This document shows positions 24,055 through 27,837 of a stretch of DNA of 39,122 nucleotides, piece after piece. Source of the stretch: Gammaproteobacteria bacterium (GTDB lineage: Bacteria; Pseudomonadota; Gammaproteobacteria; Xanthomonadales; Marinicellaceae); NCBI GenBank assembly GCA_030432115.1, contig JAUIHY010000003.1, positions 1 through 39,122 of the forward strand, read 5' to 3'. The position numbers and the translations under genes were made by a program. The notes under the pieces are model-generated. The model did no database searches. It was not told the origin of the DNA and saw nothing but the letters and a program-made list of their open reading frames with translations. How positions within the stretch are numbered: position 1 is the first letter of the stretch; each line of letters opens with the position of its first letter.

Positions 24055-25848
24055 TCATTGTTTAATTGATTCAACTTGTAAGTATTTTTTGTGTCTTTGC
24101 TCAGCTCCCAGCCTTGAATAATTGATAAAATCTATGATCTCATCGCTGTTTTTTAGATTCCCATCAATGATGCGTGTATCATTTCCATTGAGTTCTATGG
24201 TGGCTTGTTGTAAGCCTTGTTCACAAAATACATCAACCCGTTCACGAAAATCTCCACGACTGTGGTAGATGCATGCGGCAGGTTTTGGCGGTTGGGAAAA
24301 GGCATTGCCCTCGTCAATTCTTGAGCAATGTTTTTCAGCAATTAAATACTCGATAGAATTGAGCAAGTCAGATTGTTGTAAGTATTGTGTGTGCTTTTTA
24401 GGCTGGGTTGAGGTTTTATTATCAATGACAATCAATGGAATCCTTGAAACTGCCTGCTGGCCATACTTTTCTAACTCATTGGCAGCAACAGGTGTCATAC
24501 TCCTGTGGTCGCTGGTGATGATCAAAACCCCGTTTTTAAAGAAATTCATTTGCTGTAATGACAAGTAAAATTGCATGAGGGCTTGGTCGGCATATCGGGT
24601 AGTGAGTTCTATGGATGGCGTTTGCGTTATAGGATCAATATAGGGAGCATGTGTTGATACCGTAATCACATTGATGAAATAGGGGGTGCTGAGGTTTTTG
24701 ATATAATTGATTACTCGCTGATACAAATCTTCATCAGCCACTGAATTAAAGCCAAACCGTGGTTTACCTTCATAACCTTTAAATTCAGATCCTTCAACAT
24801 AGTCAAAACCAATGCCTTCCATGTATTGCCCAGTGCCTGAAAAATTGAGATCGGCACCATCTAAAAAGGCGGTGTGATAGCCATGAGAATTGAGTAGTTT
24901 AGGCAAACTCCTTTGGCTGTTCCAATACCCAGCTCGACCAAACCCGCGTTCAGAAAAATCTGATATACCTCGAAATGTTTTCTCAGCTGTTAACAAAGCA
25001 ATCCGGCCTTCTAAGCTGGTAAAATTATTGGCAAAAAAGTTACTGTAATAGGTGTTTTCTGTAGCCAGTCTATCTAAATTGGGTGTCCAGTCATTCAGCC
25101 CTGAATGTAATGAGCTTTGGTAGTTAGAGAGTGATTCTACAACCAGTAAAATGATGTTGCTTTTGTTGTTTAAACCGTTTTGCTGGCAAGTAAGCGCTTC
25201 AATCTGTTGGATTTTTTCTGGCGCAGCTTGGCGTGTCGCTTGATCATAGTCAATGGATTCTTTGGCCTTGTAATTGATGGTAAATACATTTTTTAAATAA
25301 ATGTCATTCACATAATCAATTCTTTTGTTGGTCACTTGTAAAACCCCCAAAGTTAAGAAAACAATTGAGAAGCCAGTTTTTTCAATCCAATGCCATCGAC
25401 TCACTCGGTGGAAGAAGACAAAAACCAACATGGCCGCCGATAACAAAATCAGCATCAACAGGGTGCTGGATGTTTCTCTTTGAATGGTTTCGTTGATGGT
25501 ATTGAGGTCAAAATATCGCACCACGTCTTTGAAATAAAGGCGTTGATTTAGGGATTTAAAAATATAAATATCTAAAAGGTAATAGCAAATACCGAGTAAG
25601 GCAAGCGCCCTGGAGGCAAGGCGAAGAAAATAATTTTTAAAGAAAGAGGCCGCAATTAACAAGAAGACCAGGAGTAATATCAGTCCGGCATCAGCATTCA
25701 GAACCGTTAGTCGGTAGCATTTTTCACAAGATGTGTATGCACCTAAAATGTTGTCAACCACCAAGCTTCTGTAATTCATCATGATTAAACATAATAAAAC
25801 AGCCGTGTATGTGATGATTTTGTTGATAAAAACAGAAATTTTTTGCAT
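24055..25848 (-). CDS. LTA-synthase-family membrane sulfatase / phosphoglycerol transferase-like protein
   Basis: About five N-terminal TM segments, then an alkaline-phosphatase-fold sulfatase domain: 'NIILLVVESLSNYQ', 'NNFTSLEGRIALLTA', 'VITVSTHAPY', 'LIITSDHRS'. Confidence 0.85.
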   Translation of the reverse strand: MQKISVFINKIITYTAVLLCLIMMNYRSLVVDNILGAYTSCEKCYRLTVLNADAGLILLLVFLLIAASFFKNYFLRLASRALALLGICYYLLDIYIFKSLNQRLYFKDVVRYFDLNTINETIQRETSSTLLMLILLSAAMLVFVFFHRVSRWHWIEKTGFSIVFLTLGVLQVTNKRIDYVNDIYLKNVFTINYKAKESIDYDQATRQAAPEKIQQIEALTCQQNGLNNKSNIILLVVESLSNYQSSLHSGLNDWTPNLDRLATENTYYSNFFANNFTSLEGRIALLTAEKTFRGISDFSERGFGRAGYWNSQRSLPKLLNSHGYHTAFLDGADLNFSGTGQYMEGIGFDYVEGSEFKGYEGKPRFGFNSVADEDLYQRVINYIKNLSTPYFINVITVSTHAPYIDPITQTPSIELTTRYADQALMQFYLSLQQMNFFKNGVLIITSDHRSMTPVAANELEKYGQQAVSRIPLIVIDNKTSTQPKKHTQYLQQSDLLNSIEYLIAEKHCSRIDEGNAFSQPPKPAACIYHSRGDFRERVDVFCEQGLQQATIELNGNDTRIIDGNLKNSDEIIDFINYSRLGAEQRHKKYLQVESIKQ

Positions 25849-26206
25849 GGATCCTTTTAGGCTGGTTTCATTAAGCAGATAAATTAGCCATGCCTATTAT
25901 GGTAACCAGTGAAAATAAAAGCAATCATCAAATGATGAAAAGAAATCCATACGCTGCCACTCAATGGCGAAGGTGTGCAGGACCTACGTCCATATGGGCC
26001 TAAAAGGGAAGCAAGTCACCTCTATTAACTAACAATAGAAGCAATCAACTTATTGATGATCGGTGTTTGCTGGTTCAGCTTGGTTGTTTTTACAATGGTC
26101 AGTGAGCCTAGAAGTCGATATCTAAGCAGTGATGATTATGGAATAACTTTGATATTTCAGTGGCATTAGAAAAATTGTTACAATTAGATTTTTGTGGTGA
26201 TTGAAT

Positions 26207-27118
26207 ATGGCCAAAGGCACACATGAATACATTGAAGACGAGCGCAATCGCAGCATTTTGATCAACATCAATGGCGAGTTGTTTCCGCGTGAAAAAGCCA
26301 TGGTTTCGGTTTTCGACAGCGGTTTTATTTTGGGCGATGGTGTTTGGGAGGGTTTGCGTTTGCATGATGGCGTGGTGGTGTTTTTGAAAGACCATTTGCG
26401 CCGTTTGTATCAAGGGGCCAAGGCTTTGGATTTGGACATTGGTCTCACTCCAGCTGAATTAAGCGACCGATTGATGGCCACTTTGCAAGCCAATGACATG
26501 ACTGACGGGGTTCATATCCGTTTGATGGTGACTCGTGGTGAAAAAATCACACCCTATCAAGACCCGCGCTGCACCATTCCGGGTGCCACCATTGTTATCA
26601 TTCCTGAATATAAAAATCCTTCGCCGAGGAAAATCGAAGGCGGTATCAAGTTGTTCACCACCCATGTGCGTCGTGGCTATCCTGATGTCCAGGATCAAAA
26701 GATGAACTCACACTCCAAGATCAACTGCATTCAGGGCTGTATTCAAGCGGCCAAAGCGGGTGCCGATGAGGCCTTGATGTTGGATCCGCATGGTTTTGTT
26801 GCTACATGTAATTCGACACACTTTTTTATCGTCACCCAAGGTGAGGTGTGGACATCGACCGGCGATTACTGTTTGGGTGGCATCACACGTTCGAAAATCA
26901 TTCAGTTGTGTGAAGACAACGGCATTCCTGTGAAGCAAAAGAACTTTTCTTTGTTTGATGTTTATGGTGCCGATGAATGTTTTGTTACGGGCACATTCGC
27001 TGGTGTGACACCTGTCAATGAAGTCGATGGTCGGATCATAGGTTCGGGGTCACGAGATATGATTGTGCGATTGCAGGACTTGTATCTGGCTTTGATCAAA
27101 TCGGAGTCTGAATCGTGA
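26207..27118 (+). CDS. Class IV (branched-chain-like) PLP-dependent aminotransferase
   Basis: 'VFDSGFILGDGVWEGLRLHDGVVVFLKDHLRRL', 'KMNSHSKINCIQGCIQAAKAGADEALMLDPHGFVATCNSTHFFIV', 'FVTGTFAGVTPVNEVDGRIIG'. ATG at 26207 preferred over TTG at 26201. Confidence 0.9.
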   Translation: MAKGTHEYIEDERNRSILININGELFPREKAMVSVFDSGFILGDGVWEGLRLHDGVVVFLKDHLRRLYQGAKALDLDIGLTPAELSDRLMATLQANDMTDGVHIRLMVTRGEKITPYQDPRCTIPGATIVIIPEYKNPSPRKIEGGIKLFTTHVRRGYPDVQDQKMNSHSKINCIQGCIQAAKAGADEALMLDPHGFVATCNSTHFFIVTQGEVWTSTGDYCLGGITRSKIIQLCEDNGIPVKQKNFSLFDVYGADECFVTGTFAGVTPVNEVDGRIIGSGSRDMIVRLQDLYLALIKSESES

Positions 27119-27837
27119 TTCGCATTGCCATGTGGTCAGGGCCGCGCAACATCTCTACGGCCATGATGCGTTCTTGGGAAAACCGTACCGACACGGTGGT
27201 GGTCGATGAGCCTTTGTATGGACCTTATTTGGCGGCCACGGGCAAAAAGCACCCAATGTGGCAAGAGACCATTGATGCCCAAGGTGATGATTATGCGGCG
27301 GTGATTGATGGTTTGTGCCATGAAGAAAAAACGGCGGATATTCATTATCAGAAGCACATGACCCACCACATCTTGCCAAATATGGACGTGGCCTTTGTTG
27401 GCGCGTTTCGCAATGCTTTTTTACTGCGCCACCCCAATGATGTGTTGTCATCCTATTTGCGCAAGCACCCAAGGGCCACGCCTGAAGATTTGGGCTTTCC
27501 ACAGCAGTTGAAACTGTTTCAGTGGTTACAGAAAGAACAAAGCATCACGGCACCGGTGATGGAAGCCAAGGACATTTTGATCAATCCAGAGGGCATGATG
27601 AAGAAACTGTGTCAGTTTTTGGATGTGCCTTTTGATGTAGGCATGTTGTCTTGGCCCAAGGGCTACCGTGATTCGGATGGTGTGTGGGCGCCCCATTGGT
27701 ACAACCGTGTGATTGAGTCGACAGGCTTTTCAAAGTATGTGCCCAAAGAGAACCAATTGACTCAAGAGGAGCAACGTGTCGCTGATGCCTGTTTGCCGTA
27801 TTATGAACAAATGGCGGCTTATAAGGTGGTTTGTTGA
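27115..27837 (+). CDS. Sulfotransferase-like P-loop protein, translationally coupled to the aminotransferase
   Basis: N-terminal 'IAMWSGPRNISTAMMRSWENRTDTVVVDEPLYGPYLAATG' (PAPS-loop-like) and 'FLLRHPNDVLSSYLRKH' (3'-phosphate-loop-like). GTG start overlaps the upstream TGA. Confidence 0.8.
   Translation: MIRIAMWSGPRNISTAMMRSWENRTDTVVVDEPLYGPYLAATGKKHPMWQETIDAQGDDYAAVIDGLCHEEKTADIHYQKHMTHHILPNMDVAFVGAFRNAFLLRHPNDVLSSYLRKHPRATPEDLGFPQQLKLFQWLQKEQSITAPVMEAKDILINPEGMMKKLCQFLDVPFDVGMLSWPKGYRDSDGVWAPHWYNRVIESTGFSKYVPKENQLTQEEQRVADACLPYYEQMAAYKVVC

Follow-up and report, generated by a model that had tools for sequence, protein, structure and literature searches.

A lysine-less aminotransferase homologue and a predicted PAPS-type sulfotransferase form a conserved bacterial gene pair

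Two overlapping genes on the forward strand of the window (the whole 39,122-nucleotide stretch analysed here, contig C246 of a 2.5 Mb genome that is about 90% complete and whose nearest relatives among the genomes retrieved are MAGs of Lysobacterales) raise the question of what a class-IV aminotransferase homologue and a sulfotransferase-like protein might do together. The first gene (26207..27118, +; 303 aa) runs from an ATG at 26207 to a TGA at 27118, with an in-frame TTG at 26201, and its class-IV (fold type IV) product, hereafter the AT-like protein, matches PF01063 at 135.7 bits (Pfam cut-off 28.5). The second gene (27115..27837, +; 240 aa) runs from a GTG at 27115 to a TGA at 27837 and encodes a P-loop protein that matches PF19798 (Sulfotransfer_5) at 180.2 bits (Pfam cut-off 23.2). 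As originally predicted, the GTG of the second frame overlaps the TGA of the first: the two share a 4-nt GTGA start/stop sequence (27115..27118, +), and a GGAG Shine-Dalgarno-like motif (27103..27106, +) lies 8 nt 5' of the GTG. In the sequence flanking the pair, promoter and terminator matches were no commoner than in shuffled sequence. The divergent upstream neighbour (24055-25848, - strand) encodes a membrane protein, by eye of the LTA-synthase/sulfatase type.

The second protein is the easier of the two to assign. Both motifs quoted in the original prediction, WSGPRNISTAMMRSWENR and RHPNDVLSSYLR, were found, with key residues invariant or nearly so in 81 to 129 homologues. The first forms a putative 5'-phosphosulfate-binding loop (residues 7-24; 27133..27186, +) in which W7, G9, P10, R11, S14 and R24 never vary across 129 homologues and most other positions hardly do. 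A putative 3'-phosphate-binding motif, RHPNDVLSS, extends from R105 to S113 (27427..27453, +), and its R105, P107 and S113 are kept in 129/129 homologues; E32, K80 and H85 are likewise invariant in the 129 sequences. The predicted structure (pLDDT 92.9) has the PAPS-sulfotransferase fold that the prediction required of it, and Foldseek returned almost exclusively PAPS sulfotransferases, at moderate TM-scores of 0.4-0.58. In a profile search the sulfotransferase domain of CurM (4gbm) was matched at E=1.3e-10 and that of an olefin synthase at E=1.2e-7. Fold and motif thus both mark the P-loop protein as a PAPS-type sulfotransferase. An APS kinase is encoded in the same genome (E=1.6e-59) and, when weak P-loop matches are excluded, strong APS kinase matches occur in 46/47 sulfotransferase genomes tested, as against 19/30 comparison genomes. 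Family profile, fold, 5' P-loop, 3' R...S motif and host PAPS capacity are accordingly all present for the window protein. A distant PF19798 gene lies directly 5' of cysC on a Dolichospermum plasmid (L211, 5989-7917), and two further genomes (G524, contig C5; G567, contig C408) each have a gene with a weak PF19798 match, some 1.3-1.5 kb away from one for APS kinase; the position of these distant genes supports the use of PAPS by the family.

The association of the two genes extends far beyond close relatives, as the original prediction required. We surveyed 568 genomes sampled evenly from three phyla (299 Pseudomonadota, 119 Planctomycetota and 150 Actinomycetota). A strong PF19798 gene is present in 48 of them, and all 48 also encode a lysine-less AT-like protein of the kind described below, which occurs in 51 genomes altogether, three of them without the sulfotransferase. 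By phylum, the AT-like gene accompanies the sulfotransferase in 22/22 genomes of Pseudomonadota (AT-like gene in 25/299, sulfotransferase in 22/299), in 17/17 of Planctomycetota (each gene in 17/119) and, counting strong matches, in 9/9 of Actinomycetota (each gene in 9/150). The combined Fisher p of about 1e-66 is inflated by shared ancestry; the co-occurrence nevertheless recurs separately in the three phyla, with the genes in either order and with copies that are unlinked. Of the 48 genomes, 37 have the two genes side by side (16/22 Pseudomonadota, 13/17 Planctomycetota, 8/9 Actinomycetota). In a separate collection, GTDB genomes supplied 80 sulfotransferase loci; an AT-like gene adjoins the sulfotransferase at 73 of these, preceding it in 65 loci, always at 40 nt or less, and following it in eight, where every AT-like gene belongs to the histidine subtype defined below. 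The two protein trees are correlated (mirror-tree r=0.58, equalled in 0/2000 permutations). The pair is present in Acidobacteriota as well, and the pairing is not due to chance. A clear lysine-less AT-like gene is missing from four Anaerolineales genomes that carry PF19798 (G299, G302, G304, G305), some of them incomplete MAGs, and seven to nine Actinomycetota have PF19798 only as a weak match of a different subfamily. No conserved third gene was detected at the pair, the biggest cluster of neighbours spanning eight loci. The one-to-one co-occurrence gives good support to the idea, also put forward at the outset, that both genes serve a shared, uncharacterised pathway.

What the first gene contributes to such a pathway is less straightforward. 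It had been taken for a working branched-chain-type aminotransferase, a view that we abandon because the PLP lysine is missing throughout its subfamily. Where lysine-containing paralogues read IKSLNYLN the window protein reads MNSHSKIN, at an equal distance from the (A)DEALML(D/N) block and with no gaps, so that the gapless alignment places N167 (codon AAC, 26705..26707, +) at the position of the Schiff-base lysine. Column comparison further places K171 (AAG, 26717..26719, +) in the column of the tyrosine that hydrogen-bonds PLP O3', and T200 (ACA, 26804..26806, +) in that of the glutamate that binds the pyridine nitrogen. Typing the lysine and glutamate columns in 191 sequences gave asparagine in 106, histidine in 39 and lysine in 46/46 canonical paralogues, which defines an N-subtype, to which the window protein belongs, and an H-subtype; the lysine state is perfectly partitioned by clade, none of the 145 typed clade sequences having lysine. 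The pyridine column holds threonine or serine in the 106 N-subtype sequences, glutamate in the 39 H-subtype sequences, and glutamate or aspartate in the 46 canonical ones. The O3' tyrosine column is lysine or arginine in all N-subtype proteins, leucine, glutamine or methionine (mostly leucine) in the H-subtype, and tyrosine in 93% of canonical enzymes. Two nearby lysines were considered as replacements and rejected. K165 appeared as a shifted catalytic lysine in one MAFFT alignment, by way of a gap, whereas the gapless motif alignment with KSLNYL-type paralogues puts N167 there, and K165 varies to arginine or glutamine; K171 is arginine in one branch and leucine, glutamine or methionine in the H-subtype. 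A long-branched H-subtype protein of Serinicoccus kebangsaanensis (L121, genome G300), whose gene is unlinked to the sulfotransferase gene of that genome, keeps histidine at the lysine position.

A conventional pathway, in which a working transaminase of the branched-chain or D-amino-acid type supplies an amino or keto acid for the sulfotransferase to sulfate, would agree with the class-IV fold and family and with the conserved pairing. It is at odds with the absence of lysine from 145/145 typed clade sequences and with the NCBIfam transaminase models, none of which matches the AT-like protein at its cut-off, and we regard it as very improbable. One review (PMC9309667) calls the Schiff-base lysine and the acidic residue both highly conserved among aminotransferases, K160 of E. 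coli BCAT being named as such. The window protein has the fold and family membership of a class-IV PLP aminotransferase, together with the phosphate cup described below, and lacks the lysine and the pyridine acid; since these two columns and that of the O3' tyrosine are altered, it falls short of what defines a PLP aminotransferase, though the fold is there. Judged from these residues, the AT-like protein is very probably not an aminotransferase. In a tree from which the lysine and glutamate columns that define the subtypes were left out, the lysine-less sequences form a single group (support 99), within which the N-subtype is a clade (support 100). This fits one loss of lysine and then a second step in which the glutamate would also have been lost, an order that we infer.

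The loss of these residues does not reflect decay. In asparagine-type loci the AT-like homologues share about 60-70% identity and the sulfotransferases about 45%; because the former are the better conserved, the AT-like gene is not a decaying pseudogene, and both proteins are under strong constraint. R51, G225, T227 and T263, which from knowledge of the family we take to be the PLP phosphate cup (Arg, Gly-Ile-Thr, Thr), are kept as in canonical enzymes, while W47, H103, K113, E134 and N202 are specific to the clade. The pocket region is among the best-conserved parts of the protein, which speaks against a pure scaffold, that is, a subunit with a regulatory or structural part in the sulfotransferase and no ligand chemistry of its own; one-to-one co-occurrence and correlated divergence are what such a subunit would show, but on balance we find this reading quite unlikely. 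The main rival is a lysine-free PLP/PMP enzyme, which would hold its cofactor non-covalently and catalyse another reaction (elimination, dehydration or cyclisation), with histidine or asparagine and their neighbours replacing the lysine, on a substrate that the sulfotransferase activates or that is yet to be sulfated. Some fold-type-I dehydratases with histidine in place of lysine use PLP/PMP in this non-covalent way. By sequence profile, no solved structure is closer to the window sulfotransferase than the sulfotransferase domain of CurM, and in CurM sulfation activates a leaving group and elimination follows. The intact phosphate cup argues for such an enzyme, as does the H-subtype, which retains the pyridine glutamate as a PLP/PMP binder would; against it, the N-subtype of the window is without both the glutamate and the O3' tyrosine, so that ring binding looks remodelled. 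We consider this rival rather unlikely.

Relatives that lack the sulfotransferase offer a view of the fold on its own. Plasmids of Rhodobacterales, Agrobacterium, Pantoea and Pseudomonas savastanoi, as well as two genomes (G247, G222), carry lysine-less AT-like genes without a sulfotransferase. These genes recur in an operon with a GntR regulator, an amino-acid ABC importer and often a ClC channel and proC (L214-216, L218-227, L237, L238), to which some loci (L220, L225, L226) add a member of the ornithine-cyclodeaminase family, a racemase of the enolase family or a sulfatase whose gene overlaps that of the AT-like protein. In Mameliella the overlapping sulfatase is annotated betC, and in Yoonia a sulfatase with the same annotation lies about 4 kb downstream of the AT-like gene (L226, 6897-8435, and L220, 13208-14725). 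All ten plasmid loci checked are of the N-subtype, and essentially no importer genes adjoin the sulfotransferase-paired loci. The operons suggest that the ligand of the importer-linked proteins is amino-acid-like, which may extend to the sulfotransferase-paired branch; the proposal that the substrate of the pair derives from an amino or keto acid thus gains indirect support from its sulfotransferase-less relatives. The three genomes with an AT-like gene alone and the importer-linked relatives also indicate that the fold has a role independent of sulfation. A pure scaffold is again disfavoured by these operons, while the sulfatase or ClC channel genes adjoining some of the relatives add to the case for a lysine-free PLP/PMP enzyme.

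The explanation that we favour, and hold to be moderately probable, is that a dedicated PAPS sulfotransferase and a repurposed, lysine-free class-IV fold act in one pathway on a small anionic, amino-acid-derived ligand. The pair would constitute a stand-alone two-protein sulfation module, in which the second protein is predicted to be a PAPS-dependent sulfotransferase. The first would have the class-IV aminotransferase fold and be unable to run a normal transaminase cycle, since it lacks the Schiff-base lysine and, in the N-subtype, the residues by which the PLP ring is held; as the phosphate-binding cup is kept, its ligand is probably small, phosphorylated or anionic, and derived from an amino acid. 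It could serve the sulfotransferase as a dedicated partner, presenting or processing the latter's substrate, or else catalyse the reaction that immediately precedes or follows sulfation. We infer from these comparisons a single pathway for both proteins, the absence of transamination and an amino-acid-like substrate. A bolder possibility, which we think rather unlikely, is that the lysine-free fold represents a novel type of enzyme which, having lost lysine-based PLP catalysis, carries out another reaction on an amino-acid-derived compound. It might, for instance, act by elimination or by cyclisation on a hydroxy-amino acid whose hydroxyl the dedicated sulfotransferase has sulfated or, in the importer-linked relatives, on a sulfated or halogenated amino acid that has been imported.

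The folds themselves are known, but their combination, in which a dedicated sulfotransferase accompanies an aminotransferase homologue without the lysine, is conserved and, in the literature searched, largely unstudied: nothing was found there on the gene pair, on the structures 7z79 and 9j32 discussed below or on the Arabidopsis loci, and PF19798 is merely listed in surveys. The database label of branched-chain or class-IV aminotransferase stands against a multi-phylum clade without the residue that defines PLP catalysis, which makes this a widespread misannotated family, whose members and a sulfotransferase go together one-to-one. We predict from this a sulfated metabolite, or a step dependent on sulfation, that has yet to be described, and with only two genes the pair makes an easy target for assays and metabolomics. 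In the 80 bacterial loci the two proteins are always encoded by separate reading frames, and no natural fusion was found. Some plant proteins designated 'branched-chain-amino-acid aminotransferase-like' may carry P-loop/sulfotransferase-like and aminotransferase domains fused, an arrangement that the papers searched do not bring up; if plants do fuse the same modules, the pathway would extend to eukaryotes.

Among known systems, the closest counterpart of the AT-like protein is 7z79, an 'aminotransferase-like protein from Variovorax paradoxus' of which 9j32 is the N174K mutant. It is the top PDB match (335 bits) and the best of the fold-type-IV enzymes returned by Foldseek (E=3.7e-36), and shares with the window protein 52-53% identity in the structural alignment, the fold and an asparagine at the lysine position (N174, equivalent to N167). 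It differs in being placed in the importer-linked branch (support 98); no solved structure in the sulfotransferase-linked branch was present in the PDB copy searched. The class-IV branched-chain and D-amino-acid aminotransferases (PRK08320-type, IlvE) share with the AT-like protein the whole fold, the phosphate-cup residues and PF01063. They have, however, the Schiff-base lysine where the window clade has asparagine or histidine, and the pyridine glutamate and O3' tyrosine where the N-subtype has threonine or serine and lysine or arginine, respectively. As for the second protein, the sulfotransferase domains of CurM and olefin synthase (4gbm, 4gox) and the tyrosylprotein sulfotransferases have in common with it the PAPS-sulfotransferase fold and the R...S 3'-phosphate motif; in contrast to them, at 14-17% identity (Foldseek), the window sulfotransferase is shorter, stands alone and has family-wide invariant residues of its own.
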